From Ischnura elegans (lineage: Eukaryota > Arthropoda > Insecta > Odonata > Coenagrionidae): a DNA stretch of 64,000 bases. The number at the start of each line of letters is the position of its first letter. The first letter of the stretch is position 1. Below the pieces are notes generated by a model. That model searched no databases. It was given only the letters and a program-made list of their open reading frames with translations, and had not been told where the DNA came from. Location of the stretch: positions 49,325,111 through 49,389,110 of the forward strand of contig NC_060247.1 in NCBI RefSeq assembly GCF_921293095.1, read 5' to 3'. Positions 2,501-38,600 of this stretch are shown in pieces. The position numbers and the translations under genes are program-made.

Positions 2501-2984
2501 ACAAAAGTGTTATTTTCGGTTTCCTCGTGTCTGAAAACCTAAGAAATGACATCTTGGTCAATGAAATTCAGACTTTTTTCTATCTCGATTTTTTTAACAT
2601 TGAAACCCCATAAGGCTAATTCAAAATTTTGGTTTGGGCCCACATTGTGAGGTCAAAAGGTCAAAATTGTAAAATTTTGCTTGCACTCAACAAAACTTAG
2701 GACCTTTCCCCATAAGTATGCCAATTTTCATGAACATAGCTCAACGGAAAGTTACTAAAATTACAGGTCAAAAATGACACACGACACTTGGGACAGTCTG
2801 TATCACAGATATATACAATAGATTGGCAGTGCCTATGTTTTCCTCACGGTGGCGCTGAAGCCGGCCGGCAGAAGAATTTTGCGCAACTAGCCATCTTGCT
2901 TTCACCGACCGTTGCTCATGTGCCATTAACATACGTGTATTTGAGAGGCTACTTTTCCTGCTTTTGGAGCTTTTTAAAAGAAGA

Positions 2985-3077
2985 ATGGTGAACCACTGCG
3001 TTATGTGGGGGTGCACATTTAAGTATACTACGAGGGGAAATTTTCCTGGGGGGGAAAATGTGTCTCTACACGCGTAA
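2985..3077 (+). pseudogene. THAP-like N-terminal exon remnant
   Basis: An ATG just inside the left end of the 2.1-kb element opens a 30-residue frame beginning MVNHCVMWGC, then Thr/Lys/Gly-rich residues and VSLHA before a stop. THAP domains start with a C-x(2-4)-C pair and an FH[RA]FP motif. The spacing CVMWGC and the VSLHA motif fit the first third of such a domain. The second Cys/His pair and everything downstream is missing. This could be chance, because the match is short, but its place at the end of an element with 8-bp duplications strengthens it. Confidence 0.35.
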
Positions 3078-4121
3078 ATAATAGATATAAGGAAAGCATG
3101 GTTTGCGTTCAGTAATGTCTCCGCTTCCATCTCACAGAGCATGAAAATATTTTCCAAAGCCTTTTTTTTGTACGTATCGCCACGAAATTTATATCACGTG
3201 AAGTCCAGGTTATGCTCTACCTTTTTAAATTTATTGTTGGCAAAATTCACATAGTTGTAGAAATAGCATCATGAAACTGTGACACGTTATTTTTGCTGAA
3301 ATGCAAATTGCTCTCCAAAACAAATTCTAAAGGTGTGTGACGGAAGCGGATATTTACCGGAGTTTCTGAAAGCGATATCATTTCAAATGCAGTAGCTTCA
3401 TATCTCTAGGATCGGTAATTAATAACATGTGCATTCTCTGTCTCGGTGTTTTGATGACGGAATCATCATGATGTTTTCAGTTGTGTTTTCTGTGTTTACC
3501 AAGAAAAGACTTTCTCCAGTTTCCATTATGTCATATACTTTCCGCTGTTGCATTATTACATTGTATCGGAATTTTATTTCCGTTGTAGTATTATTATTTA
3601 TTTAGATATGTAGAGCGTGTATTATGCACCTTTAACTCTATCTGGAAACTTAACGAATTTCTTTCAAAAGCATAAGTTTTGACTTTGTTAATATCTATTG
3701 AGTGAAATTCCGAGAAACCGATCGCTTAAATGATGGTTTGCATGTGCTCGCGGTGAAATGACGCGGTCACATTCATTATAATTCAACCTTTCCATGTAGC
3801 ACTTATCAGGTATTTGATCATTTTGTGGCTTCTATATAGAACATGGTGTCTGTTATAATCACTTATCCCGGTAAGATAGAAATTCTAATTAAAAACGTAC
3901 CCCCTCATGATGTAAGATTTATATTATAGTCTGCTTCCCCTTCGAATATTATAACAACATGAAACTGATTATTGATGATCATGGATCAAATCGTTGAGTT
4001 TTTTAAGCCAATAACTTCTTTTCAAGTTCGCTATTGGGTGATCGTGAGGGGAAATCCAAAACACTGCCTATATAAAATAATGTAAATTATATTTCTGATG
4101 CTTAAGGATAGGAATTCAATC
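3078..4121. other. interior of the 2.1-kb element, no gene seen
   Basis: AT-rich sequence without an open frame of note, recognisable domain or tandem repeat. Confidence 0.5.
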
Positions 4122-4208
4122 GCATTGACTCTTTACGACCTCAGAAAAGCATTTTACAGCACCAAGCAGCATGCCTTGCTCAGAAAGTTAGATCATAATG
4201 GGTTTAAA
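4122..4208 (+). pseudogene. LINE reverse-transcriptase fragment
   Basis: A 29-codon open stretch reads ALTLYDLRKAFYSTKQHALL and then RKLDHNGFK. This is the conserved '[24 protein letters not shown]' block of non-LTR retrotransposon reverse transcriptases (CR1/Jockey-like), with the catalytic-site neighbourhood altered (YDLRKAFYS). It ends at a stop and no flanking RT sequence is seen. It is a short degenerate piece inside the 2.1-kb element. Confidence 0.6.
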
Positions 4209-5170
4209 TAGGTTGAATCAAATTTAATTACGTAATATTTTTGGCCCGATTACTTATGGCAGTGAAATGTTAGGTAGCATTGCTTCTACGTTTTTCGTCT
4301 AATTGACAACTCTAACTGAGCAACAACTCTTTGACAACAAAAATACAGTAAGTGGAAGCATCAAACCTTTGGAATTTTCGAATTATTTTGTTTGAATAGT
4401 GTGACAATGTCGCTGGTAAATCTAAGGGTGAACAATACCATGTATTCACGATTGTAGGCTACCTTCCTACACTAGCAGACGACGTAGTTAACCATTTTCC
4501 CCATCTGCTACGCCCCTTCTACATTTGGGACACAATATTTTTTTTTTCGAGATAACTCATGCATATGGATTCCAATTCCATAATATTGAGCAGGAACCGA
4601 ATTAGTATTAATCTTAGCTCAGCTTATATTACCAATTTCATAACTTCGTCACGGTTATGTTCCGCTCAAAGATTGGTTAATTTACCACGTAAGTGTCAAG
4701 ATCGGTCCCTTTCTTTTTAATTGGATACATCTTAAACGAAAATGACAACGTTTTCTATAGTTCATAGCCTTAATCAATGCGCCATTATCTTTCACAATGT
4801 AATTTTCCTCCAGTTCCCTACTTACGTAAACGCATAGGTCGGTGAAAGCAACATGGCCGCCAGCAGAAAGGCATGGCTTCACCCCCCCCCACTCCCATTG
4901 CCAATCTATTGTATATATCTGTGGTCTGTATAGTCGAGTCACCTTCAGAGATAAAGCCGCCATCGTCGTCACTATAAATACGATAAACTAAATGAAGAGG
5001 AAAGCGATCCCATAGCCAATCGAAAAACATTGTTATACAATGTAACACACTTCCCAGCAGATCTATTCAGTGAATCAATTTAAAAACATAAGAATGACGA
5101 TGCGGAACAGAGGAGTGACACGGGATCATGGGAAATTGTTAAGCCTCCCACCCCATTTAGAGTTTTAGAG

Positions 5171-5204
5171 ATTGGAGAGAGGGATAACCTCAGAAAGCAA
5201 CCTG
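5171..5204 (+). repeat. left 34-bp terminal inverted repeat of the MULE
   Basis: Begins ATTGGAGAGAGGGATAACCT and is identical over 34 of 34 bases to the reverse complement of 17781-17814. Confidence 0.8.
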
Positions 5205-6337
5205 ATAACAGCGCCACCTCCGTTTGCCAATCGCCGTTTGCTCTTCAACTGTTTCCCCGCCGATTGTTCTTCAACTATTTTCCCGCGCGCAGTTGCCGAG
5301 TGTTGCTGTTGGTTGAGTGTGCTACAGACCCCGCGGTTGCCGAGTTGGTTGTGTTGTTGTTGCTGCAAACCACGTGCGTCGTGGTACGTTGATAAATCGT
5401 GTAATGAATACATTTCCTCTGTGAATAGATTCGTTGTACTTAAGCTATCTTATTTTTCGCAGCATCGCCCATTCATCATTTGGTCCGTGACTATCTGCTG
5501 ATTTGGTCCGTGACTATTTGCTGATTTTCTGTTCTTGGTAAGTGGTTCCCACTATATTTACTGATTATATGATTTCAAGTCGTCCTTTCCAAAGATTCCG
5601 TTTATTTATCCCTCTACGCTATCTCGTTTCAGATTGGTACCCCAAATTTTATTTTGCCCTGTTTTCCCCTCGATAAGTAGCCGTTTTCTTGGTAAGTAAA
5701 TGCATAATCAAATCTCCTCAAGCGGGGAGCAACAGTATTTTTCCTTTTTATTGCCAGATTTCTCCTCTGATGTTTGGTTCCTGACCCACCGATGGCTAGT
5801 TAAGTAGTAGACTACATCGTGTACAAGCTCTGCTTCGCCTTGAAGCCATTTCATTGATACTTTCTAAGTTATCTCAGTTTTTTACAGTTACGTTTTTTTA
5901 TTTTATCATGCTATCATATCTTGTTTCAGATTTCCATCCCCATTGTCTTCGCCTCTTCGTGTAGCCTTTTGTTCCCGTTTTTCCTTCCGTATTGTATAAT
6001 TTCTTTTGGTAAGTAATTCCACTACATACAAAATATTTGGCTTTGGTGTGTTGACTAAGCATTGCATATTGTTTGGTGTTTTGGGTGAGAACTTTCAGTG
6101 AGTATTGTGTATTTAGGAGATAAATTTCATTCTCAGTGACTATAATTTGCTTAATAATAACTTGCCGCAGGTATATCAGTAGCAGATATATCGTATGATT
6201 AGTTTGTTAATATTAATTATGAATTTAATTATACTCTCGGCACATATTTTCAGTTGTGATTATGAAGTTTTGCCTAAATTGTCACTCATCAATCTTTCAG
6301 TGTAGTACTGATTAAATTTATGACTTCTCTGTGACAG
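5205..6337 (+). promoter_or_regulatory. leader of the MULE gene with repeated non-coding exon modules
   Basis: No ORF of note, but strong splice signals are seen. A donor at 5538 (TTG|GTAAGTGG) is followed by an exon at 5633-5691 (CGTTTCAG| ... TTCTTG|GTAAGT). There is another acceptor at 5757, and an exon at 5930-6008 (TTGTTTCAG| ... TTTTG|GTAAGT). The acceptor at 6337 opens the coding exon. The 5633 and 5930 exons and their splice sites resemble each other, as if one exon-intron module had been duplicated. The promoter probably lies between the inverted repeat and about 5500. The region 5220-5400 is richer in GC. Confidence 0.45.
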
Positions 6338-6344
6338 TTTGACC

Positions 6345-9300
6345 ATGGCTGCACCTGGATTACTAGTAATTAGTGATTCCCAGTGGAAGTATGCCGTTCC
6401 TGAAGTACAGGAGTTTGGTGAATTTGATGTCAGTGTGATACCCGTATCTGGGATGCAAGTTCACCAGGTGGATTCAACAATGTTGTTGGCCACTGAATTT
6501 TTTAATGACACGGTTGTCCATTTGGGCACCAATAATTTGATATGTGGTGAGTTTACCATTGGTATTTGTTTTCTTTGGGTGTATTTCTGTGTTGAGATTA
6601 TTCTGTTAGATTTTACAACAACCCTATGTACAGGTGAGACACCGGAGAGAGTAGTAGAGCACCAGCAGGAACTGTTGACGAGGATTCGCCTGAGGAATCC
6701 AAAGGTGCGGCTTTTCCTCTCTAGTGTGTTGAAGAGGAGGGTGAATTACTTCAAATCGTGGACGTTACAGCGAAACCTGTATATAGAGGAGATGAATTTG
6801 AAGATTGACAAATTAAACATGCTTATGAAGCAACTGGCTTTGAGGTAATTCATACATTTAGTCAGGGCTGTTCTTAAACATGTGTTCCTAACTGTATTGT
6901 TTGTTATACCTAACTTTGCTTTTGGCAGGATGAATGTGGTCTTCATAGACAACTGGCGGGAGTTCGAGGCCCAGAGTCAGGATCCCTTTGAGTTCTTCTT
7001 GGGAAGGGATGGCCTTCACCTGAGTAGGCGTGGTTTAAGGGTGCTCACAGGTAATGTCTATCGTGCTTGCCTCCAAGCGAGGAGGGATTACCCTCGTTCT
7101 CTTGCCTGCCTACCACCTGCACCCTCTCCTGCCTCTTCCCCTGCGCCATCTCCTGCCTCTTCCCCAGCACCCTCCCCTGCCTCTTCCTCTGCTCCCTCTC
7201 CTGGCCACCATCCTTTACCTTCCCCTTCGTTTTCTGATGGCGCTGGCATGAATGCTTCTCTACCTTCTTTTTCTTACTCTGATGCTCTTTGTAGTAACTT
7301 GCCCCTTCATAATGATTTAATGCAAGTCTCCAGTTTTCAGCCTTCTGTAAGACCTCTTCACCTTCCTTCTGTAACTAGAACCAATGCTTCTTCATATTCT
7401 TCTCCGCCTCTTAGTCCTTCATCTTCTACTCCCTCGTGCTTTAAGTTTACCACCGTGACTAGGAGAGGCAATCATCACTGTAATAAACCTAAAATAGTTC
7501 CAAAGCATAGTAGCTCATTCAAAATTCCCTTAAATAACCGGTGGTCTTCTCTGTCCTCTTTGAATGACTCCTTCATGCCTTCTTTTTCTTCAGTAGCAAA
7601 CTGTGCAAAAAAACAGTCTTGTATCAAGAAAAAATCAATCTCTCCTAAAATGTTTCCATCTTCAGCATTCTGCCGCCCATCCTCATTGCCTTTAATATCT
7701 GATGTTCGTAACACCAACAAAGATGGGACTACTAAAGAATTCCCTGCCAGACTTTGCAGGCAAATTGGTTTCAAGTTGAAAAATCCTCTTACTGATAGAT
7801 TAACTATAAAAATTCAAAATGGTGGCTCATCAGAGGGAAAACTTGATATTCATTCAACTTTATATCCAAGAAAGTGTCCTAACTGCAATAAAGTGTATGC
7901 CAATAAATCTTCATTTTGTCACCATAAAGCCACTTGTCTGAGGATTGAGAAAAGTGATAGTAATATTTCCTATCCTAGAGTGTGCCAAATATGCCTGGTG
8001 TCATATTCTAACAAGTGTAACTATAGTAGGCATAAGAAAACCTGTAACGAAAAGTCACAATATATTGTATGTCCTCATGATGGGTGTAATGTTAAATTTC
8101 AAAGCCACTCCATCCTGATTTGTCATTTACAAAGCGTACATCAGGAAGATATTTGTGTTGAAGATCATGAATTCAAAGATATGTTTGATTTTAATGCATG
8201 GAAAACTAGTCAATGTCAGCTAAATTACATGTCCTTGGTCAAACACAATGGGGAGCGTGTGAATCGTGGTAAAAGGTTCATGTATTTCATCTGCAAATTT
8301 AACAATCACCACAAGAATGGCATAGTGAGCAATAAAACAAATAGAAAAAGGAAATTTGGCCGTATGCCTAATAGTGACTGCATAGCACGTATGTTGGTAA
8401 ATGAAAGTGAATCGGGTGTGTCTGTGAAATATGTGAATGCTCACAATCATGACCTGGAATTTAAAAATGTTAAATTTTATCGATGGGACAATGCAACAAA
8501 GTATAAAATAAATTCCCTTCTGGAACAAAGTGTGCCAGCACATAAAATTCAAGAGTATTTGCCTGCTGATCCCAGTTTAAATGAAATGCTACCCCTTAAA
8601 GAACATTTCATCACATCAACTCAAATAAACAAAATGAAGTATGATTTGAATTCTAAAAAGCACCTAAGTGATGATGATGCAGTTGCTGTTGATTTACTTG
8701 TGCACTTAATGAAAGATGAAAGTAAGGATTCGATCTTGGTTTATAAACCTATGGGCTCAGGTACAATAATAGGCAATAAGGGTTTAGATAATTTACCACA
8801 CGCTTCTGAACTTTTTGTTTTGGGTATTCAGCAGAAACTTCAGTTAAAAGAAATGATAGAGGGCTGTGGTAGAATACTATGCATAGACTCTACTCATGGC
8901 ACCAATCAGTACAAATTTCATTTGCTTAACTTGATTGTACCAGATGAGTATGGTGTTGGTTACCCTGTCGCCCATTTCATCACAAGCCATTTAGATGAGG
9001 AGACACTAACTTACTTATTGCAAAGTATTATGGATAGGTCCCCTGATTTGCATGTAAATGCCATCATGACAGATGGTGATGAAGCCTTAGGTAATGCAGT
9101 GAGGCGGGTTTTTGGTCACAAAACTAAACATTTACTTTGTTTGTGGCATGTGAAAAGGAACTGGCATAAAAACCTACACCAAAAAGTTAAAAATAAGGAA
9201 CTGATTACGGAAGTCAACGAAGTTTTGGAAACTTTGATTGAGGAAAAAAATGATACTGTATTCAATGCTATGCTAAACTCTTTCTTAGCCAAATATTCTG

Positions 9301-10961
9301 ATCAAGCTGGTGAATTTACAAAATATTTCAAAGATTACTATTGTAGCAAGAAAGAGAAGTGGGCCATGTGTTACAGAAATTTTCCTCATGCTGCTACAGA
9401 TACCAATATGTTCGTTGAATCATTTCATAATAAGTTGAAAAGCCACTATCTGAACAGAAAAGTAAATAGGCGCCTTGATGATTTAATTCAGGTGCTTCTT
9501 ACCATTCATAAAACTGTCCATTTAGGTTTAGCATATAAAAGAATGAGTAAGAAGCCTCCATTAGGATTTCAAAACTCCTATAATAATGACCACATGAAAG
9601 GATTGAAAATTTCCGATGATGAAATTTTTTCAACATCCGATGAAAATGTCTGGCATGTTAAATCTCAAAATGACCAATCTACAATATACACGGTGGAAAA
9701 TATATCCCAGAATTGTCTCTACCCTGACTTGTGTTTTATAAGGTGTAATGAGTTTTCATGCCAGGACCTTTGTTGCCACTTATATACATGCTCTTGTCCT
9801 AACAACTATGCTCTTTGTAAACATGTACATAAGGTTCATTCATTTGTTGTCCGAAATAGACCTACTCCTGCACCTATGCATGAAACAATCCTAAATTTTC
9901 CTCCAGATAAACTGTTTAAGAGTGTTTCCACCTCTAAGGATTGCAAATTAGAGCACATTAATGTACAACACAGTCATGTCATTGGTCAACACCTGGATAA
10001 ATTGAAAATCTTAAGCCAGCAGTGCTCTCCTGTATTACTTCCCTACATTAGCAAATCATTAAAGCTGCTGGTGGAGACGTGTCAGGGTGCCATTGAATGC
10101 AACCAAAGCAATTCCACTTTGGGGACATTATCAGCACATGATGTACCTCCAAATGCCAAACTCAGCCCTCAGCTGAAGTTACATCCTGCTATTAAGAAGA
10201 GAAGGCCCATGGTTAATCTATTTAAAAGACCTGGTTATGTCCGAAGGAAAGATATAAAAATATCACTTTTATCTAATGAGGTGAGCAGCTTCACTGAGCC
10301 AATTGTAGATGTTGCCAGTCTATCAATGGAAGTTTGCAAGGTTGGTTCATTCTCTGTCAAAATGTATGAATTGAAGTCCTTAGATTTTCTAATACCACCG
10401 GAGGAAGTCAGTGCAATTCGTAAAGTCTTCCCTGATTTTAAGAGAGGTTGGCTGTATGACACGATCATTGCAGCTTTCTTGTGGAAAATTGCTGAGTCTG
10501 TCCCTTCAGTTTTTTCAGTGGATCCAGTTATTTCTCAATATGTCACTGGAAAAATCTCTCAATCCCGGCCAATGGCAATCTTTGGTAAATCTGACCTTTC
10601 CTGTGTTACTAGAATAGTCATTCCCCTCAATGTTTGCAACTCACACTGGATGCTTATTGTTGCTTTGCCATTAGAAAGGAAATTAGAATTCTATGACCCT
10701 GCTGCAGATGTTATTCACCACACTAATAATTTCGCCATTCAAAGATGGATTAAAGTGCTTAGTGTCTCATTTGGATGCACTGAAAGGGATTGGGAAGTGT
10801 CATCGCCAGAGCATTTTAAGCAGAGAGACAGTCATAACTGTGGAGTTTTCATTTGTTGGTATGCTGAAAGAATAATACAGGGAAGGTTGATCAAAGAGCC
10901 ATTTGATGCAGACAAGTATAGGAAGTATATGTTTGACATGATAACAGTACTGGACAATTGA
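6345..10961 (+). CDS. SGNH hydrolase - zinc finger - MULE transposase - SWIM - Ulp1 protease fusion
   Basis: Three exons (6345-6546, 6634-6844, 6929-10961) join in phase to 1481 aa. The ATG at 6345 (GACCATGG) lies just after an acceptor. Residues 1-175 form an SGNH/GDSL esterase domain with all blocks: S12 in SDSQ, G36, N64 in GTNN, and D165/H168 in DGLHLS. A Pro/Ser/Ala repeat (PAPSPASS) follows. Then come C2HC fingers near 454-475 and 490-512, a C2H2 finger near 519-542, and a FLYWCH/WRKY-like zinc domain at about 559-650 ending HNHDLE. The MULE DDE core has D791 (CIDSTHG), D853 (MTDGDEA), CLWH, and E968 (FVESFHNK). A SWIM finger (CSC..CKH) sits at about 1092-1107. The C-terminal Ulp1-type protease has H1377, D1394, Q1436 and C1442 (DSHNCGVF). 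The transposase should cut and integrate the element. The roles of the esterase and the SUMO-type protease are unknown. No frame break is seen, so the copy may be young or active. Confidence 0.88.
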
Positions 10962-12726
10962 TTTATTTACTATGTATATTATTTACCATGAGTTACGTGT
11001 CACTTTGTGTGTTGACTGCATGTTATATTTTTCATTTTCTTCTTCTCTTCAACTTCTCTGTGCCATACTTGTCACTGCTTTTCTGTAAATAAGTCCCTCC
11101 TTTCCACGCTTTCCTATTTCATTTCTGCTGTTATGTTTCTTTGAATTTTTTCTTAAGTTTATATATTTTATAATTGTTATTTGTTATATTTTATTTATGG
11201 TATTTTATAATTGTTATTGGTTATATTTTATTTATTGTATTTATAATTGTTATTGGCTATATTTTATTTATTTTACTATATATAATTGTTATAATACCTC
11301 ATGTTGAAAATTCTCACGTTGTTTTATCAGAGAAATACTCAAATACATAATATATTTGCTAGTAATTTATCCTCCCTCTTAGAGATGCCAAAAAAGTTAG
11401 TGTAAAACTCCATTAATCATTTGTTTGTGAACTTTCTAACCAATTATTTCCTTTTTTCATGATTTTTCCTGCCCGAGTTTACATACGAGAAAGGGGGCTG
11501 TCTTCCGACCTGTCAATGCTATGCTCATCTACCTACCAGAAAGACTTCTATTATGTGAAAGTATTGGGAGAAAGACCATTTAGTTAATGAATTCACAGAC
11601 AGTGATGTAATAGTGACGACTCTCAATCCGACAAGGCTTCACATTGACTATTTTGAATTTGATTGAATATTTTGTGAGCGCAATTTGAGTGCACATATGT
11701 AAATAATAGAATAGTTACTGACGCGTGGCATTTCGCCACCAGAATCACTTTTAAAGCAGCCTTTGGTGGTCCAAAGCCCACATGAAAAATGCTGATGGGA
11801 ATTGATTAAAATAGTTACTGTTAATTGATTACCTTCGGAAAGAATTTGTAATTATGGCTTTTTTTCTCTGATGCAAGTACATAATTATTCAATATTATGT
11901 GTGATGTTTTATTATTGCTATAATAATTTTTTTAGCATGTTGATGATGTGTGAATCAAATGATGTTTTTACAAGGCCGTAATAAATTGTGTATTTTATTG
12001 TACCTGGTGTTCTCATTTTCCTTTGAGGTCTCCATTTAAGCCTAAGCATCCATATCTGTATGCATATTGCATGATTAATTTACCATTTCTTGGATAGGTT
12101 TTGTAAGCAGATTATACATTTCACTTTCAAATTGTTGCGATTGCAGGGTTACCACTGTATAAGATTGGTTGCTGGTGAATAATGACATCATGTCATCATG
12201 GTTATCTCTGTTATAGTAGAAGTTGTGTCATCATTGATTATTGAAACATTACAACTAGTCATTCTGTTAATGCTTCTTACTGGGGCATGCTTTACAGTAT
12301 CATCTTAACAGAATTCTGGGTGTTGTCATCAATGGTGGCATTTAGTAGGTATACATGTATTTCATTCTTAAATTCATGTGCACACCACTAAACCTTAGTA
12401 TATACCTTCAAGGGATTAATTCCTGATCTTTGGGGGATGATTGGTATAATTAGAATTCAGCAGTTCTGTACTTGGGCCGGTACGGACAGGTACGGCGTAC
12501 CCCCTAAAATCCAAACTCGTCATAAGCGTACCGGTTAAACTATCTTTTTAAATCTGTAAAAAATAGACTCACTCTAAATTGTCCAATGGATTTCAGAATA
12601 AGTGATTTTTGGTGAGTACCACCTACATTTTTTCCCAACTACAGCACTGGAATTCAGTATGTGAAAGTGACAGCTAATGTGAGAAGGCAGGTAAGTTATA
12701 AGAGCAATGTTGCCTAGTACCTGTCA
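10962..12726. other. 3' untranslated and spacer region of the MULE
   Basis: No second gene is seen. A degenerate run of about 40-bp repeats (TATAATTGTTATT.. TTATATTTTATTTA) spans about 11165-11290. An AATAAA at 11980-11985 is a candidate polyadenylation signal, which would give a 1-kb 3' UTR. The stretch 12473-12530 has a GTACGG/GTACC-rich patch of unknown meaning. Confidence 0.5.
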
Positions 12727-15109
12727 TATTTTATTCAACCGATGAAGCAACATTTATCTAAAATGAATGGCTCACAAGTATCACGGTAATGAGTTATTAA
12801 ATACGCAGTTCTTTCAATTATTTGACAGTCCTAGGGACTGTTCCCTGTTCTGCCAATAAAGGTTGCTTTTGAGGTTATCACTGTGTATCGGAACAGTGTT
12901 CAAGATTTTGTCCAACTTTATTTCATCTAATCTTTCGTCATTAAACTATTTGTTTACAAAAGACTGTTTCGTTTTAATCCTTAACGCCTTACTGTTATTT
13001 AAGATACCAAATACATATCATATGAATAACACACAAGTTAATGTGTTTAGTAAACATGGGTTGCTCTTGAGGTTATCCCAGTCCATCGAAATGAGTTGTT
13101 GCACTGTGCTTGTGTTTATTTTATTCAACCGATGAAGCAACATTTATCTAAAATGAATGGGTCACAAGTATCACGGTAATGAGTTCTTAAATACGCATTT
13201 CTTTCAAATATTTGAAAGTCGTAGGGTCTGTTCCCTGTTCTGCCAACAAAGGTTGCTTTTGAGGTTATCACTGTGCATCGGAACGCTGTTTAAGGTTTTG
13301 TCCAACTTTATTTCATCTAATCTTTCGTCAATAAACGATTTGTTTACAAAAGACTGTTTCTTTTTCATCCTACATGCCCTACTGTTATTTTAGATACCAA
13401 ATATATATATCATTTAAATAACACATAAGTTAATACGTTTAGTAAACATGGGTTGCTCTTGAGGTTATCCCAGTCCTTCGAAATGAGTTGTTGCACTGTG
13501 CTTGTGTTTATTTTATTCAACCGATGAAGCAACATTTATCTAAAATGAATGGGTCACAAGTATCACGGTAATGAGTTCTTAAATACGCATTTCTTTCAAT
13601 TATTTGACAGTCGTAGGGACTGTTCCCGGTTCTGCCAACAAAGGTTGCTTTTGAGGTTATCATTGTGCATCGGAACGCTGTTCAAGATTTTGTCCAACTT
13701 TATTTCATCTAATCATTCGTCATTAAACTATTTGTTTACAAAAGACTGTTTCGTTTTAATCCTTAACGCCTTACTGTTATTTTAGATACCAAATATATAT
13801 CATATGAATAACACACAAGTTAATGTGTTTAGTAAACATGGGTTGCTCTTGAGGTTATCCCAGTCCTTCGAAATGAGTTGTTGCACTGTGCTTGTGTTTA
13901 TTTTATTCAACCGATGAAGCAACATTTATCTAAAATGAATGGGTCACAAGTATCACGGTAATGAGTTCTTAAATACGCATTTCTTTCAATTATTTGACAG
14001 TCGTAGGGACTGTTCCCGGTTCTGCCAACAAAGGTTGCTTTTGAGGTTATCATTGTGCATCGGAACGCTGTTCAAGATTTTGTCCAACTTTATTTCATCT
14101 AATCATTCGTCATTAAACTATTTGTTTACAAAAGACTGTTTCGTTTTAATCCTTAACGCCTTACTGTTATTTTAGATACCAAATATATATCATATGAATA
14201 ACACATAAGTTAATGTGTTTAGTAAACATGGGTTGCTCTTGAGGTTATCCCAGTCCATCGAAGTGAGTTGTTGCACTACGTTTTTGTTTATTTTATTCAG
14301 CCGATGAAGCAACATTTATCTAAAATGAATGGCTCACAAGTATCACGGTAATGAGTTCTTAAATACGCATTTCTTTCAAATATTTGAAAGTCGTAGGGTC
14401 TGTTCCCTGTTCTGCCAACAAAGGTTGCTTTTGAGGTTATCACTGTGCATCGGAACGCTGTTTAAGGTTTTGTCCAACTTTATTTCATCTAATCTTTCGT
14501 CAATAAACGATTTGTTTACAAAAGACTGTTTCGTTTTCATCCTACATGCCTTACTGTTATTTTAGATACCAAATATATATCATTTAAATAACACATAAGT
14601 TAATACGTTTAGTAAACATGGGTTGCTCTTGAGGTTATCCCAGTCCATCGAAATGAGTTGTTGCACTGTGCTTGTGTTTATTTTATTCAACCGATGAAGC
14701 AACATTTATCTAAAATGAATGGCTCACAAGTATCACGGTAATGAGTTCTTAAATACGCATTTCTTTCAATTATTTGACAGTCGTAGGGACTGTTCCCTGT
14801 TCTGCCAACAAAGGTTGCTTTTGAGGTTATCACTGTGCATCGGAACGCTGTTTAAGGTTTTGTCCAACTTTATTTCATCTAATCTTTCGTCAATAAACTA
14901 TTTGTTTACAAAAGACTGTTTCGTTTTCATCCTACATGCCTTACTGTTATTTTAGATACCAAATATATATCATTTAAATAACACATAAGTTAATACCCCA
15001 GTAAACACAAAATGCTGCAGAGGCGCATCAGATGCGCTTCGCGGCAGCGCTGCAGCTGCGGCGAAGGCGCTGCTGCAGCGCGTCTAGCACTCCCAAACTT
15101 CCCTTTTTT

Positions 15110-15259
15110 GCATGTCATAAGCGCTGCACAAGCATGTCATAAGCGCTGCACAAGCATGTCATAAGCGCTGCACAAGCATGTCATAAGCGCTGCACAAGCA
15201 TGTCATAAGCGCTGCACAAGCATGCCAGGAGCGCTGCAGAAGCATGCCAGGAGCGCTGC
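15110..15259 (+). repeat. 22-bp minisatellite (GCATGTCATAAGCGCTGCAC..)
   Basis: Seven units start at 15110, 15132, 15154, 15176, 15198, 15220 and 15242. The first five are essentially identical and the last two carry GCCAGG in place of GTCATA. Each contains the palindrome AGCGCT and lies in the GC-rich left end of the inserted element, so it may act as a subterminal binding array. Confidence 0.95.
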
Positions 15260-15331
15260 GCTAATGTGCCACGATCGCTTCAAACGCATGTCCGAATCGC
15301 TGAAAATACATTCCTAATGTGCCACTACTAC

Positions 15332-15548
15332 CGCCGCAAAAAAAGGTAGAACGCTGAACTTTAGGCATTTGTATGAAATTCTGCCGAAGCTCCACAGGGT
15401 CGTTTCAGATATCGTTGTACTCGTTGTACTAATGATCCATTGTTGTAGTCAAATAAACAATGAGTTGAACGATATCTGACACGACTGTCGAGCTTCGGCA
15501 GAATTTATACAAATGCTTAACGTTCAGCATTCTACCATTTTTGCGCCG
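15332..15548. repeat. long imperfect hairpin (~95-bp arms)
   Basis: The left arm begins CGCCGCAAAAAAAGGTAGAA and runs through CATTTGTATGAAATTCTGCC and CAGATATCGTT. The right arm is its reverse complement with few mismatches, ending CATTCTACCATTTTTGCGCC. A loop of roughly 30-45 nt separates the arms. It could be a nested MITE or a small-RNA-generating foldback inside the 2-kb element. Confidence 0.85.
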
Positions 15549-15706
15549 ATAATAGCAATCTTCAAGTACTACTTAAGTATGTGAGGGGCAGCAAGAATTA
15601 ATTGAAAACACAGGTTTGCAATAAATGATTTTATTAATGATTACTCTGTTTTAAGTATACATTAGAGTACTGATTAATGATAGACATAATACACGAAGAC
15701 ACTCAC

Positions 15707-16320
15707 CCATAATGACACTGCATATTTTCGTTCCCATAAACTTTTTCTTCTTCATCCCCTCAACTCCAGACTTTCCGGTGAGGCAGAAGTGCTTCGCTGA
15801 GGGTTGCTCCTCATCACCACAAATGCGAGCAAGTTGAGTAACCTGTAAAGAAAAATATTATGTAATCAACGGAATTCTGGTTGAAATTATCATAAAAGAA
15901 TTAAACACAAATGATTGAGGCCTTACCAAATTATTGTGGAGAGATACATCCTCTGACAGTTCCCTCTCAAGCTCCTCTACATCATCCAAAGTTTTAAGAG
16001 GGAATTTCCGGTTGACGGAAATGCTCTCTTCATTCACTACAGGCTTGGACTTTAGCTCTTTCTTTAATTCTGTGAGCATGCTTAAAGCCATGCTCACCTT
16101 CCCATCTAATCTTCTGTATCTCTTTTCCCATATCTTCTCCTGAGCTTGCATGAACCCTAAAATTTTAAATGTGGAAAGGTTAGTTTACAAAGTGACCTTT
16201 ATGTCAGTACTTATATAAATAAATACATGATAAAAATATTACCATACAACTCTTCTGCTGTTGCCGGCCGCTTAGTCTCTCTTTCTTTCCCACCAGGTGC
16301 TTGCGGATCTAGTTGTTTTC
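15707..16320 (-). CDS. DUF4806-like gene carried by the inserted element (partial)
   Basis: Three minus-strand exons join in phase: 16320-16243, 16156-15927 and 15842-15707. All borders are GT-AG (for example TATG|GTAAT, TTTTAG|GG, TTTG|GTAAGG, TTTACAG|GTT). The product runs KQLDPQAPGGKERETKRPAT... then a charged, coiled-coil-like stretch (EKIWEKRYRRLDGKVSMALS). The segment FPLKTLDDVEELERELSED, followed by a VTQLARICG-type helix, matches the start of the DUF4806 domain found in many arthropod transposon-linked proteins. A lysine-rich end follows (GMKKKKFMG). The last exon ends at a further donor (ATGG|GTGAGT) with no clear next exon, and the 5' start is unknown. Function is unknown. It may be a captured host gene or the element's own accessory gene. 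Confidence 0.55.
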
Positions 16321-17010
16321 CTGCTATGAGAAATGTCCATTAATTTTAACTCGTGTACTGCATAATACATCATCGCGTCAGCCCATCTCGTTAGACAATC
16401 TTTTTAATATTTTACTAAAAAGGTTGGCTAACTAAAAAATTTTGAGCTGCGAACTTTTCCTGTGACATGCGGTACACATTTCCTATTTCACTATTAATGG
16501 AAACCTATATAAGCAATATTTAAAAGCTTATATCCAATGGTTCCGAACATAACTACGACCACGTATGTAAACAAAAACACAAAGTCTTAAAATGTGTTTA
16601 TATTCACCATGCTAGAATGCCAATTCTACCTAATTTCAAGGAGAATTGAATTTAAATTAACTAAAATTATACATTTTAAAAGAAGATGATAAATTCTTAT
16701 CTAATAAGAATCCCCAAGGACGATCAACAGTTCCACAACGTTGGCCGCCATAGACTCAGTAAACTTCCCAAGCACCCTGGTAAACAATCGCGTAGCGGAG
16801 GATTGTTGCATTGTTGCACAAACTCGCATTAGCAGCGTACCAGCAGCGTGCTGCAGGCATGCTTTGCGCATGCGCTGTTGATGCGCTGCAATTGCATGTT
16901 TCGCCAGCGGGCTGCGAAAGAGCGCTGCACAAGCGCTGTTACCGCGCTTCATTGAAACGGAAACGAACTTGCAGCTGTGAAACCCCTGTGCAGCGCTGCT
17001 GCAGCTATTC
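16321..17010. other. right part of the inserted element, no clear gene
   Basis: AT-rich to about 16700, then GC-richer with repeated GCGCTG and TGCGCATGCGC words up to the right inverted repeat. On the minus strand this is where the promoter and first exon of the DUF4806-like gene would lie. I could not define an exon. Confidence 0.4.
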
Positions 17011-17780
17011 GTGTTTACTGGGACGTTTAGTAAACATGGGTTGCTCTTGAGGTTATCCCAGTCCTTCGAAATGAGTTGTTGCACTGTGCTTGTGTTTATT
17101 TTATTCAACCGATGAAGCAACATTTATCTAAAATGAATGGCTCACAAGTATCACGGTAATGAGTTCTTAAATACGCATTTCTTTCAATTATTTGACAGTC
17201 GTAGGGACTGTTCCCGGTTCTGCCAACAAAGGTTGCTTTTGAGGTTATCATTGTGCATCGGAACGCTGTTCAAGATTTTGTCCAACTTTATTTCATCTAA
17301 TCTTTCGTCATTAAACTATTTGTTTACAAAAGACTGTTTCGTTTTAATCCTTAACGCCTTGCTGTTATTTTAGATACCAAATATATATCATTTGAATAAC
17401 ACATAAGTTAATGTGTTTAGTAAACATGGGTTGCTCTTGAGGTTATCCCAGTCCATCGAAATGAGTTGTTGCACTACGTTTTTGTTTATTTTATTCAGCC
17501 GATGAAGCAACATTTATCTAAAACGAATGGCTCTCAAGTATCACGGTAATGCTCATTTCATATACAGTAAACATATTAACTTATATTACTTCATATGTAG
17601 TAAACATATTAACTTATATGTATAAATCTATGCAAAGAAATATCCCAATTTTTTTGCGGTTACATATGTCATATATTACAACACTTTCCAATCCTGTTTT
17701 CCTTTAAAACTACATCTCTTCATTTTCACTTAATTTTTAACTTCGCGGCGTTTTGTGCCTCTTTGCGCATTTCGCCATGA

Positions 17781-17814
17781 CAGGTTGCTTTCTGAGGTTA
17801 TCCCTCTCTCCAAT
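17781..17814 (-). repeat. right 34-bp terminal inverted repeat of the MULE
   Basis: Reads CAGGTTGCTTTCTGAGGTTA onward and is the exact reverse complement of 5171-5204. The stretch 17560-17780 between the array and this repeat is AT-rich without features, apart from a short duplicated TAAACATATTAACTTATAT word. Confidence 0.8.
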
Positions 17815-18035
17815 AAGAAGGACTCCCCCATTTACCCTTGTTTTGTGGTTGGTTGTGGTGTGTGGTGGTGTGGCAAGGGTTGCTTGGCGAGTACCGCATG
17901 TCGCTCTGCCCGTGGAAGGAAAAGCGGTACAAGCTGAGGAAAGAATACCATTAGGACTATACTTAATGAGAGATCGGAAATAAGTTGCTGTAGGAACTAC
18001 GGGAAATTACTGAAGCAATTGGAACTTATTGAGAA

Positions 18036-22526: not shown

Positions 22527-22965
22527 GTTATTCCGGGTTCGAATCCCGGTCAAGGCGAATGATTTTTTCTCTGTGGATTTTTCGCACAATTGTGCATTGC
22601 GGGTGACTCCCGTAAAAGTTATCACCGTGGCTAGTCCCGGTATACTTAAATTCGTCAAAGAGAGAACACCTATATGTGTTCAAAGTTCGGACTTTACTCT
22701 CCGGCTGTGGCGCCGTGCGCACGATTTGGACTGCTCGTCGCATAATATGCTCAGCAGTCCATACCACCGTATAGTCCACAAATTTCCACAGGGATGAATG
22801 ACGCCTCGGTAGCTTAACTGGCTAAAGCACTCGGCCGGAAATCGAGGGATCCGGGTTCGAATCCCGGTCAAGGCGAATGATTTTTTCTCTGTGGATTTTT
22901 CGCACAATTGTGCATTGCGGGTGACTCCCGTAAAAGTTATCACCGTGGCTAGTCCCGGTATACTT
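22527..22965 (+). mobile_element. dimeric tRNA-derived SINE with 9-bp duplication
   Basis: Two near-identical units of about 118 bp (from about 22533 and 22855) are separated by a 150-bp spacer. The second unit has a full tRNA-like head (22803-22877) with A box TAGCTTAACTGG and B box GGTTCGAATCC. Its anticodon loop would read GGA (Ser), but position 33 is C rather than T and the acceptor stem mispairs. It is therefore a SINE head rather than a working tRNA gene. The first unit lacks the 5' half of the head. AAATGTTAT flanks the whole (22518-22526 and 22966-22974), so it inserted as a dimer truncated at its 5' end. Confidence 0.65.
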
Positions 22966-32600: not shown

Positions 32601-35600
32601 AATATTATTGACTCCTAAGAAAGAAATAGAAGTATACATTTGCACCAGGGAATTCATATTACACATACCCTTTCAATTTCTTACTCCACCACATCTAAAA
32701 TAGGATGGCCTCTTCAGTCATTACAATAAAGCCTAATATCAAACACTTATTTAACATGAAATTAGCCTCAATGATAACATACAAGTTTCAGAGTCTTCCT
32801 GAATTCCACAATGTGTAGTGGTTTTATGCGACTAAACTGTAAATATGTATGACAAAAGAATTAGACCAAATTATTGTCAAAGCTAAGATGGAGAACGTTA
32901 AATAGTAAAAAAGAAGAAGCTGAGTCCTTAGTGCCCTTGTGGGACCTCCACGTATGATTAAATAATAGAAAAATGCTACATTTGACAACTTGATTTTCAA
33001 AATTTGTTACTATTCAACACATTGAATTACACATCAGGATTGCTAATATTTTTTCTTACATCTAGCTTTAAGATTATCCCACAAAAATAGCTTTCAAAAG
33101 GGATAAGGTAGCGAAACTGATCTAATAAATATTTTACCATTTATTTCACCTAATGAATTAGTGATTCAAAATAATTTATTGCTTTCATCATTTAAATTCA
33201 TGCCATAAACACTAATCAAAATTTAATATGCTCCAGAATACAAAATTACTCAGAAACATAGACTATAGGAGCAATCAGATGAATTCTAAATGAAGAGGAA
33301 GTAAGCTTTCTCCTGATAGGTATTTCATGAAGATTCCTCAGAAAGTTTAAGTTAACAATGCAAAAAAACTAAGAAGTTTACCTGCTGAGAGTGCTACCAT
33401 TGGAAACCTTAGCAGCTACACCAGGTCGGAAATCATCATCATCATCCAATCCTCGATGAAGAGAGACAGCAGATACTGTATCATTATTCAGAGCCGCGTT
33501 GTGCGCTTCCATTGCAGATATATACTCGGGTGTTGAAAGTGAAGCTTTGGAAGGCTTGCGATACCTTGGAAAGATTCAGCATGAGAATAGCATTAGGGAA
33601 GCTGAAGTGACACAGTAACACAAAAAAATGCAATTAAAAAAAATATATAAATGACAAGCCGACTTACATTTTGAGATAGAGAGATGATCCAACAACAGAT
33701 ACAGAACTAAGAGCCATTGCAGCCGATGCCATCCATGGCTATCAGGGAAAAAAAGAATAAGTTTAAAAAATCACACGAAGAGATGTAATTTAAGAAAAAA
33801 AAGCATCAATAAAAGAATAGTAAACTATAAAATGCATTACAATTCAAAATAATATTTCTTATGAATGGAATAAATGCAATGGCCAATTTACAATAGGGCC
33901 AAGTTAACCGAGTCTGGGCATTAAATACAGTTGAGGCAAAAGTGAATGGAGAGGTGAGGAATGGGCTATAGCTCTTCAAAACCCCACCAACAAAAGTTTA
34001 AATAAAAAACATATGCACAAAAAACATAACGACCGGTTTCATCATAGTACGACATCATTTGATTGTCCTAAATATATATATATGGGAAATTTACAAAGTT
34101 TTTTCTACCTAAAATGACACAAATTAACTAAACACACATCAAACTATTGATTTTATTATACACCCAACTCCAAAATGTATGGGATATCCAGTTTTATGAG
34201 TGGCCCCAACAAACAACCCCCTGAAATGAAACCCTCCCTCCAAGCCAACCCCGATCAAATCAATAGCCAACTGATGTTAAAATAACATCACTTGGTGGCA
34301 CAATGAAAAAAGAGCTTTGATGGTGAGATGACTGCCTAGATTGAGATAAGAGAGAAAATAGTTTTTCATTGTATTTTTTGATGCTCAGCATTTGTACACT
34401 CAAGTTTCAAAATTTAGCGGCTTTCCCTGATTTTTCAAAGACAATGTCAGATATTTTACTCAATTTTCACAGGTGTACTTTTACCTCTTCACAGAAAATA
34501 AGGAGGAATTTTCTTCAGCAGTCATAATTTAGAGACCAGTTAGAGGGTAGGTGATTCTTAACATAAAACAATTCTGCTACATATTTTGAGAAATTTACAG
34601 GACCTCCAAATTAGTTATTTGCTTTTAATCGATTATGTACTCAAATAATGGATAAAACAAAAGTAAATGTTATAAAATCTACTAACCTGCAGAACTAAGC
34701 CTATTGGACTAAATGCACCTGCTGCAATTGGAATGCCAAGAAGGTTATACATGCTGGCAAACAGGAAGTTGTAACGAATCCTCCTCACAGTTTTTCGTGA
34801 TAAATCCAGGCAACCTATCACATCCAACAGGTCATTCTGTACAAAAGAGGAAGACTAGATAAATAAGTCCCATTCACTTTTGAAATAATAACATTGACAT
34901 TAATGTTAACAGAAGAGTAATCAACCATGCAAAGAAAAGGCAATGCAAAACATTTGAGAAAAATTCTGAAGTGACATACCCTCATTAAGACAACGTCAGC
35001 TGCCTCTACTGCCACATCAGTCCCTGATGATATAGCTATCCCAACATCGGCTTGAGCAAGAGCTGGAGAATCATTGATACCATCGCCAACCATAGCTACA
35101 CGGGCTCCCTTTTCCTGCAATTTTTGTATTTTTGCCACCTTGTGAGAGGGCAAAACTTCCGCAAAAACACGTCCGATTCCCACCTGAAATCAAGGAACAT
35201 GTACATCAAGTCTTAATAAAGTGACAACATTTTTTTGCATAAAATTTTCTCAACAAGAACTAGTTCCAAACCTGTTGAGCGATAGAGGCTGCAGTTTTCC
35301 TGTTATCTCCAGTCAGTAGAATCACTTCCAGCCCCATCCTCTTCAAAGAATACACAGCCAAATGCGCCTCTGGCTTCACTTTATCAGCAACTGCCATGGT
35401 TGCCACTAACAGTCCTGAAAAGGATTAAGAACATAAACTGAGCATTGCCAATAAGTGTGCATTGTGCACAGAAAATTTTCATATTACAAGTAGGGGTGAC
35501 TAAGAATTCCATTATCTCATCCAGAAAGGTAATAACTAAAATCAGGAACTTCCATCATGGGCAACCTTAAATTGTTTCATCTCGCAGCCTTCCATGAAAG

Positions 35601-38600
35601 AGTGAAAACGAACTACTATCTGCCCAGGAATACAATTTCCATTTTAAGATTGTAGAACTTATAAAAAATAAGAATTTCAATGTTTGACATTAAAGTTTCT
35701 ATCTTCGAATGAAGTTCAAGACAAATACTGAGGCCAAATGTAAGTAGGACATTCATTGCGAGTATACACATAATTTCTGTGCTCCAGAATTTTGATAATC
35801 TGCATTGGTGGCACTGTTAAATAGTACCATAGAGTACTGTGTTATGTTATGATATATACTTATGTTAGAGTTATTCTATGATCGTACATAGTAATCCTAC
35901 CAATTTAATGACAAGATATCACATTTTTATAACACACTGTTTGAAAATTAGAATTTCATGTAATGATGGTTCCCTTTGGAAAAAGTAAAAATTCATAAAT
36001 GTAATTTTTTCAAAGAGACATACATAAATATGTAATTAATTCATTTAATAATTAACAATGTTCCAATTACAATAGAAATAAAAATTACAACTCCAAATAT
36101 TTCATTCATGAATCTCTTCCATGTTCCAATGAGAAATATTATTTAGATTGGGAAAAGCAGATACAGAGCATTAACTTAGGGCATGATCATGAAGTGTCGA
36201 AATATCCATATCATTTACTAAGAGGACTTACCATTCACTGCACACAGAACCGCTGTATGACCCATTTCCTCCTCATCAGTCATTATCAAATCAACATCTG
36301 TACTTATATGCACACCATTTCTCTTCATCCATTCTCTATTGCCAATCAGTACCTTAAGTTCAGAAAAGGATATAAATTGGTAAAAGTTAGCAAATGTTAC
36401 GGTTCAGAAAAAGTGTTTAAATACTTATCATTGAAGAGATTAGAGAAAATTATGAAAATAAGAATAAGTTAAGGGTATTGCAAGAATTGGCTAGGAATAA
36501 AAATTGAAAAAATCATATGTACGTAGGAACAAAAAAATCTTAATATTACTCCAAAAATATTTTCAAAATGCCCTTTTAATTATTAAGAATTGTTAGAAAT
36601 ATTCTACATAAATGCAACATATTCTACAACACAAATACTCTACAACATATCTCACACTTTCAAATTCTAAACACAGACAATTAACTATATTTTCCATGTA
36701 CAGAAAAATCGCTGCATATTTAACCTTCATATAGCAAAAATTTGAGAAAATCTCGTCATTAATGAAGCCTTAGATCTAGGTGAAGTCCCAGGCCCTTCCC
36801 TTGAAGATGCAAAGATAAAAGCCTCCTAAAGGAATATCTATAATAACAAAACCTGTTCATAAAGAAGTCGCACATGGGCTGCATTTATAAAAATAGCAAG
36901 CAAAACCTTTCTGTAGCAAAAGTTTTCACTTTACGTTACCTCATCCCACAAAAATGCAACCTGCAAAGCATAGGCGGATCTAGGGGGGGGGGCACGGGGG
37001 CACGTGCCCCTCCCAGATCCTCAAAAATATGCACGATTTTTAATATTGTCATTATCATTGCGTTCGTTTTGTATTACGAGGTATCCTTGTGCCCCACCCA
37101 GAACAAAATCCTGAATACGGCCTTGCTTGTGCCCCTCCCAGAAAAAAATCCTGGATCCGCCCCTGCTGCAAAGTAACCATGAATACTGAACCCCATTGTA
37201 ACAAGGTCCCCATTTTCCCTGTCCCGTCAAATTCGTTCCATGTAGCTTTTACTAAATAATTTTATGTCTTTAGAAAACAGACATGGGAAAAAATTGAAGC
37301 TTGCAGAAGACACAGTACCTCATACTTCATAGAGCTCTCTCCAATCCCATTCCTATCCAGATCTGGAGAGGTGAGTAATAATTGCTGCAGTTCATTGGAT
37401 CTCCTATCTTGCAGCATGGGTTCACATACATTTAATTCAACAGTAACTCCTCCCACTATCACAGATGATCTTGTTGGACCAGGGGGTTTTCCAGCAGAAA
37501 GATTTCTAAAAGACAATTTATAAAGAAAGTAAGCATAAGTAAAAAATATAGTCAACTCTAGAAAATGGGAGGAAAATGACAGTATTATTCATCCTGTAGT
37601 TAAACTCAGGAATACTAGGCTTCATCTGTCTCAGCAAAATTCCATTTTAGATTAAATATGTGCCAAAATAGTCAGAAAAATAACTCAATAACATAAACTA
37701 TCAATTAAACAACTCTTAAACTGGGAGAGTCTCTAAATATAGCATTATGTATATATTTAAGGCTGATTAAAATGTGTCTTTCAAGCACAAAGATAAGAAA
37801 AAGTTACTGACCACAGAAAATCAACAAGTGCAAATACTTGAAATTGATATTTTTTACAAATAATAGACAAGGAACATTCTAAAAAAGGTTTAAGACAACT
37901 AAGCACCTCTCAAGGAGTTTTTCCAGCATATCACTTCAAATCTCGTTTATCACAACACCCCTTTACCAGGAAATAAATTCTCTTCTCTGCTATTACCAAT
38001 CATTTTCATAGTTTAACTACACCAAATCAACTCATGGTTAAGTTATGAGCATCCAACACTCCTGAAGCTAGGATTTGTTAAGCGTGTTCTTGGATAAAAG
38101 AGTGAAAGAGAGGTGCTACTCTGCACTCATTAGGCTGCACCTAAAATATCTGGCAAGCATATGGGATCCTGAGCAGAAAGATCTAATATAGAAAGAAAAT
38201 ACAATAGAAAGTATCATTATTCATGAAAAACTTCTATGGGCGGACTGAGAAAACTGTGAGACAGCTAATAAACGAATTAGACTGGGAGCAACTAGAAAAT
38301 TTGAGGCTAGGCTAAGATTGCTAGAGCAATTAAGAAGAGGTATCTTAAAGTGACAAGGACAGCATCATGCTAGAACCACATACATACATTTCCAGGTCTG
38401 ACAGGAACAATAAAATAAGACAGATATTTTTCCAAACTCAAGGGCCTAGGATTTTGTTTTTTTCCCAAGTACTTTCACGAATGTTATGTCAAACAATGAC
38501 ATTCAAATCTATCACAACACCAAGGTAATTTTTTATCTGTGCTCCTAGATTTTCTTTTAAATAACTGACTAACACCCCCCACCACACACCTGCAGAGGCA

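Follow-up and report, generated by a model that had tools for sequence, protein, structure and literature searches.

SGNH hydrolase and Ulp1 protease domains joined to a Mutator-like transposase in an apparently intact transposon of Ischnura elegans

Mutator-like elements (MULEs) are the closest described relatives of the putative transposon reported here, which lies in a 64,000-nucleotide stretch of the Ischnura elegans genome (NC_060247.1, positions 49,325,111 to 49,389,110; this whole stretch is the window below). MULEs leave target-site duplications of 8-11 bp, typically 9 (PMC6446971, Table 1). That paper tabulates extra motifs for MULE groups, among them SET, FAR1, DUF, an ovarian-tumour gene and a domain given as PMD, with no SGNH among these table rows, and a term search of its main text returned neither "Ulp1" nor "hydrolase". 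A survey of 4,268 arthropod genomes (2026) found complete elements of up to 9,972 bp and open reading frames (ORFs) of up to 1,136 aa (PMC13359780); a term search of its main text gave no Ulp1, SGNH, GDSL, lipase, peptidase or satellite. Ulp1 domains have been described in Mutator elements from hydra and lancelet as well as from plants, with a suggested part for Ulp1 in transposition (PMC2836005). An initial annotation of the window had placed such domains in plant MULEs, which holds for plants, but the hydra and lancelet examples show that they are not confined there.

SGNH esterases have been found on other kinds of mobile element. The same annotation had assigned them to the ORF1 proteins of CR1/L2-type long interspersed nuclear elements (LINEs); this is correct for LINEs, but the domain also occurs in RTEX and Penelope (PMC3905857), in bdelloid long terminal repeat elements (PMC5408684) and in a Helitron-associated gene (PMC4021074). 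The LINE enzyme showed lipid binding and weak esterase activity, and targeting of RNA particles to membranes, with their assembly there, was favoured as its role (PMC3905857). Help in crossing cell membranes was suggested for the GDSL enzymes of rotifer retroelements (PMC6431247). The SGNH captures on LINEs and on bdelloid elements were apparently independent (PMC5408684), and the reason for SGNH esterases on unrelated mobile elements is unsettled. In a search of the open-licence literature, mostly titles and abstract openings, for SGNH or GDSL together with transposase or MULE, SGNH was tied to retroelements and a Helitron and no described element with SGNH fused to a DDE transposase appeared among the matches listed; precedent elsewhere is possible. 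Within that scope, the earlier statement that no known element joins SGNH and Ulp1 to a DDE transposase was upheld.

The window contains what is very probably an apparently intact autonomous MULE. Its one detected gene encodes an SGNH domain, zinc-finger motifs, a DDE transposase, a SWIM-like motif and a Ulp1 protease; the element and this domain order are read from the sequence with high confidence. Every MULE feature tested is present: DDE transposase, 9-bp duplication and terminal inverted repeats. The ends and coding exons are as follows.

5151-5159, no strand: left target-site duplication, 9 bp CCCCATTTA, an exact match to 17826-17834, 11 bp outside the inverted-repeat arm
5160-5204, plus strand: left terminal inverted repeat, an outer 11 bp and then 34 perfect bp
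6345-6546, plus strand: coding exon 1, SGNH blocks I-III (S12, G36, N63), start context GACCATGG
6634-6844, plus strand: coding exon 2, mid-part of the SGNH domain
6929-10961, plus strand: coding exon 3, running from SGNH block V (D165, H168) through a Pro/Ser-rich linker, C2HC/C2H2-like motifs, the DDE transposase (D791, D853, E968) and the SWIM-like motif to the Ulp1 protease (H1377, D1394, Q1436, C1442)
17781-17825, minus strand: right terminal inverted repeat, 34 bp perfect at 17781-17814
17826-17834, no strand: right target-site duplication, 9 bp CCCCATTTA, an exact match to 5151-5159

Comparison of the upstream and downstream flanks by blastn revealed a perfect 34-bp inverted repeat (5171-5204 and 17781-17814), one of two perfect inverted repeats of at least 20 bp with separate arms in the window. 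When symmetric offsets outward from the arms were examined (n=60), offset 11 alone gave a 9/9 duplication and the next best gave 6/9. Among 19,384 random position pairs, 4 had a symmetric 9-bp repeat without mismatch at one of 30 offsets. The element thus occupies 5160-17825 and is 12,666 bp long, or 10,640 bp once a nested 2-kb element is subtracted; the initial annotation had given 6345-10961, which is the extent of the gene but not of the element. Short inverted repeats sought within 3500-13000 included none that convincingly flank the gene, the true right end being outside that range.

The SGNH exons start 1.2 kb inside the left end of the element, and the last SGNH block lies in one uninterrupted frame with the transposase and protease. 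Because the inverted repeats and the 9-bp duplication enclose the SGNH exons, these exons belong to the transposon. A host SGNH gene beside a MULE was ruled out on the same grounds, together with the position of the last SGNH block in the transposase frame.

Spliced together, the three plus-strand exons encode 1,481 aa in a stop-free frame, as the initial annotation had proposed in describing one phase-consistent frame of this length. Both introns, 6547-6633 and 6845-6928, are GT-AG and keep the frame. The borders of intron 1 represent a choice (GTGAGT...CAG is canonical), since other nearby GT/AG pairs are also frame-keeping; intron 2 had a single frame-keeping solution within the range tried. 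Retention of intron 1 adds no in-frame stop, and retention of intron 2 does. Exon 3 comprises 1,343 codons with 0 stops, whereas the two alternative forward frames contain 84 and 157, and the chance of such an open frame at its own base composition is about 10^-38.6. Counts of the RNY (purine-any-pyrimidine) codon pattern were 0.25-0.34 by segment and do not by themselves mark the exon 3 frame as coding. The start codon at 6345 has a good context. Outside these exons, no second gene was detected at 10962-12726, where no stop-to-stop ORF longer than 72 aa lies wholly inside, or at 17552-17780, where overlapping stop-to-stop ORFs are 55-89 aa; these ORFs were not compared with protein families.

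This structure bears on two alternatives. An assembly or annotation chimera of unrelated pieces would fit the presence of a single copy of the element, but the frame is kept across the coding introns, no stop interrupts exon 3, and all parts lie between ends and duplication copies that match across 12.7 kb; we consider a chimera barely credible. The second is that SGNH and the transposase are not made as one protein in vivo: transcription would begin at exon 3 or later, and the upstream exons would be a remnant or encode a separate short product. The stop in an unspliced intron 2 would truncate that product at residue 138, so that the SGNH D/H block is missing, the second base of exon 3 begins an ATG at 6930 (M139), and composition at fourfold sites differs in the SGNH exons. 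However, SGNH block V and the transposase share a single stop-free frame in exon 3, the SGNH catalytic residues appear intact, the context of the 6345 start is good, and canonical frame-keeping introns exist, so that we regard a separate SGNH product as quite improbable.

Pfam assigned the protein to MULE (PF10551; residues 787-882, 5.5e-16, full 99-position profile), Lipase_GDSL_2 (PF13472; residues 57-174, 7.3e-12, profile positions 67-176 of 178), Peptidase_C48 (PF02902; residues 1355-1475, 8.6e-8) and ZSWIM1-3 RNaseH-like (4.8e-9), all above the curated cut-offs. Three more Pfam matches on the 1,481-aa protein were each below their own cut-off, as was NCBIfam IS256 (residues 830-991 of the full protein, 6.4e-9). 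The Ulp1 part aligned with yeast Ulp1 1euv at 1.1e-5. With three of these domains above cut-off in one frame, the proposal that SGNH and Ulp1 are joined to a MULE transposase was borne out. A PHROGs search with exon 3 gave a best E of 0.019 and was not used.

Three complete catalytic sets had also been proposed. The DDE set (D791, D853, E968) and the Ulp1 H-D-Q-C set (H1377, D1394, Q1436, C1442) are in place in the translation where stated, as are SGNH D165 and H168. The SGNH Asn, however, is N63 and not N64: GTNN here aligned to GTND of the zebrafish L2 esterase 4c1b (N195 there, PMC3905857). S12 and G36 are outside the Pfam-aligned stretch and were assigned from motif and spacing. With phmmer, N63, D165 and H168 aligned weakly with 4c1b (E=0.053, or 0.76 for the best stretch), and the SGNH part was closer to bacterial lysophospholipase L1 (1e-4). 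The esterase 4c1b has S143, G165, N195, D279 and H282 (PMC3905857); the putative S-G-N-D-H set here follows the order of the LINE/Penelope esterase, with gaps of 22-30-84-3 there and 24-27-102-3 here. As for the zinc modules proposed initially, the C2HC/C2H2 fingers are motif-level, with zf-C2H2 below cut-off (E=0.014), and SWIM is a motif match alone (CSCPNNYALCKH, residues 1092-1103), and the FLYWCH-like module found no family match.

Similar to the arthropod MULEs Phantom, Ghost, Spectre and Muta (PMC6446971, PMC13359780, PMC5225508), the element has the common MULE DDE, a 9-bp duplication and inverted repeats of a length in the usual range. The D-D separation of 61 residues fits the 60-76 of most arthropod MULE clades (PMC13359780). 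At 12,666 bp and 1,481 aa, the element and its protein are larger than the survey maxima of 9,972 bp and 1,136 aa. Matches in that survey were extended by 5 kb per side (PMC13359780), too short a distance to include a right end 8.4 kb past the DDE core, or 6.3 kb if the nested insertion is left out. In Mutator and Ginger1 elements the Ulp1 domain is likewise carried by the DDE transposase, at the C-terminus in Ginger1 as in the present protein, and SGNH is unmentioned in that description (PMC2836005). In CR1/L2/RTEX ORF1 and Penelope the SGNH domain is on a retroelement protein without a transposase (PMC3905857). The Texim SGNH genes associated with Helitrons in fish (PMC4021074) and the GDSL-encoding ORF3 of bdelloid retroelements (PMC5408684) are also SGNH sequences of mobile elements, but by description are a mobilised gene or a separate ORF, without DDE fusion.

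The SGNH part differs in composition from the rest of the gene. Fourfold sites ended in G/C more often in residues 1-190 (38/73) than in residues 241-1481 (130/445; Fisher p = 2e-4); a repeat-rich linker, residues 191-240 (15/43 G/C), was excluded from the comparison. Both coding introns are within the SGNH region. The intron positions and the distinct fourfold G/C would be explained more readily by capture of SGNH as genomic DNA with its introns than by retro-copying of a LINE ORF1.

The remaining features of the element are its leader, a satellite array and a nested insertion.

5205-6344, plus strand: 5' leader, with GGTAAGT donor-like sites at 5537, 5691 and 6008 and a 31-nt acceptor-like segment repeated at 5605 and 5902
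12727-14996, plus strand: satellite array of ~390-bp units, 5.8 copies, 92-96% identity to the first unit
14997-17022, no strand: nested insertion of 2,026 bp with inverted termini CCCAGTAAACAC, which splits the array and is not part of the original element
17023-17551, plus strand: satellite array continued, about 1.35 units

The satellite units are 92-99% alike among the longer pairs listed. A full unit contains two motifs resembling the inverted-repeat core, GATAACCTCA-A(A/G)AGCAACC, which share the same 1-base deletion. The array has 14 core-like motifs, all in right-end orientation, and none of 2,000 dinucleotide shuffles of one unit reached either motif score. On the simplest reading, the satellite would be an internal copy of the right end amplified in tandem. 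Units bearing the end sequence look like a transposon seeding a tandem array, and their core motifs may serve as extra transposase-binding sites. Mosquito Muta1 and related MULEs have short subterminal tandem repeats in place of a 390-bp satellite (PMC5225508), and aphid Phantom has a mini-satellite after the transposase ORF (PMC6446971).

The array raises the possibility that the element falls outside the MULE clades proper and belongs to Rehavkus, a sister group of MULEs in which a minisatellite precedes the 3' inverted repeat. The array ends at 17551, 230 bp before the right inverted repeat (17781), in the position stated for Rehavkus, and the 9-bp duplication and inverted repeats of 26-400 bp fit as well (PMC6446971). 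The Rehavkus transposase, however, has a PHD finger, and none was found here by Pfam at E up to 1; the protein has a SWIM-like motif instead. The mini-satellite of the Phantom clade in aphids likewise follows the transposase ORF (PMC6446971). We consider assignment to Rehavkus unlikely.

Donor-like sites and the repeated acceptor-like segment suggest that the 5' leader may hold several untranslated exons. The three donor-like sites and the repeated 31-nt segment together also suggest duplication of a leader exon. Within the nested insertion, 22/44-bp tandem repeats were observed at 15110-15292, along with a self-complementary stretch at 15325-15555 (79%) and a minus-strand ORF at 15858-16184 with a weak resemblance to DUF4806 (E=8e-4, below cut-off).

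Several observations weigh against an intact autonomous MULE with all the proposed modules. Both ends start with GAGT, and the outer 11 bp agree at 5/11 bases. The nested 2-kb insertion means that this copy is not pristine, and it is the sole copy of the element in the 64-kb window. The D-E separation of 114 residues is slightly under the 120-135 (gaps counted) of most arthropod clades (PMC13359780). The SWIM-bearing piece had no Pfam match at E up to 10, and FLYWCH had none at E up to 1 with the whole protein or 10 with the SWIM-bearing piece. A PDB sequence search with the transposase region gave 0 matches at E up to 1, and AlphaFold models from single sequences of the Ulp1 and transposase parts had mean pLDDT (predicted local distance difference test) scores of 35.3 and 37.8, too poor to use, which leaves the domains with no fold behind them. 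The G/C shift in the SGNH part could be a composition effect of the 5' end. Relatives were also absent from phage, plasmid, viral-contig and bacterial/archaeal collections, which are expected to hold almost no animal DNA. In these collections, tblastn gave no match in phages (SGNH and transposase pieces) or plasmids (transposase piece); two protein scans of viral contigs gave 3 and 1 pattern matches, none confirmed; and in bacterial/archaeal genomes a protein scan gave 16 pattern matches, none confirmed, and the motif pattern 0. A single match to the degenerate motif pattern in viral contig L001, whose ORFs look phage-like by eye, was taken as chance.

The one copy in 64 kb and the long, fully open frame would also be compatible with a domesticated, immobile host gene of MULE origin. 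The perfect 34-bp arms and perfect 9-bp duplication fit a young insertion and not an old host gene, and domestication seems very improbable.

For the mobile MULE that we favour, transposition by the encoded protein is likely, judging from its sequence. By analogy with the family, the zinc modules would bind the inverted-repeat core, and the DDE core would excise and reinsert the element by cut and paste, leaving the 9-bp duplication. The Ulp1 domain may remove SUMO either from the transposase itself or from host factors of repair or silencing; we give even weight to action on SUMO and to its absence. The SGNH domain, a probable later capture of genomic DNA that brought its introns along, may function as an acyl hydrolase or in lipid binding, and a membrane or lipid role for it is somewhat doubtful. 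Since a DNA transposon makes no RNA particle, deacylation of host proteins or help in transfer between cells would be just as possible. A rather doubtful extension is that the element represents a new MULE lineage in which one protein, with a working SGNH and SUMO protease, would cut DNA, edit SUMO and act on lipids or membranes, and which would generate a satellite by amplifying the end that its transposase binds.

Specialists would not expect such a fusion, even with precedent for each accessory domain on some mobile element. If confirmed, it would add a DDE transposon to the retroelements and the Helitron-mobilised gene with which the membrane-linked esterase has been associated until now, and would help in studying the movement of such elements inside a host or from one host to another. 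Because a cut-and-paste transposon lacks an RNA particle, the fused esterase would allow a role in RNA particles to be told apart from other roles, such as host-protein deacylation or transfer between cells. With its defined ends, duplication and open frame, the element is a candidate for a yeast excision assay like that used for Muta1 (PMC5225508).

Other features were observed in the window outside the element. To its left, two ORFs at 131-1305 resemble the remnant of a transposase that we take to be mariner-type, the second with DDE_3 below cut-off (E=2.7e-4). A 140-bp tandem repeat (3.1 copies, 92% matches) is present at 1894-2327. A near-perfect 28-nt inverted repeat (2804-2831 and 4896-4923; 96%, 25 bp perfect) brackets about 2.1 kb left of the MULE, and the 2804-4923 interval is possibly another short element. 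To its right, minus-strand pieces encode part of a HAD hydrolase (34818-35183, 4.2e-9) and two heavy-metal-associated domains (46807-47295, HMA 4.5e-22); these pieces, spanning 34818-47295, resemble exons of what we take to be a copper-transporting ATPase. The sole Rfam match in the window at gathering thresholds was a tRNA gene at 22803-22875 (RF00005, 55 bits).

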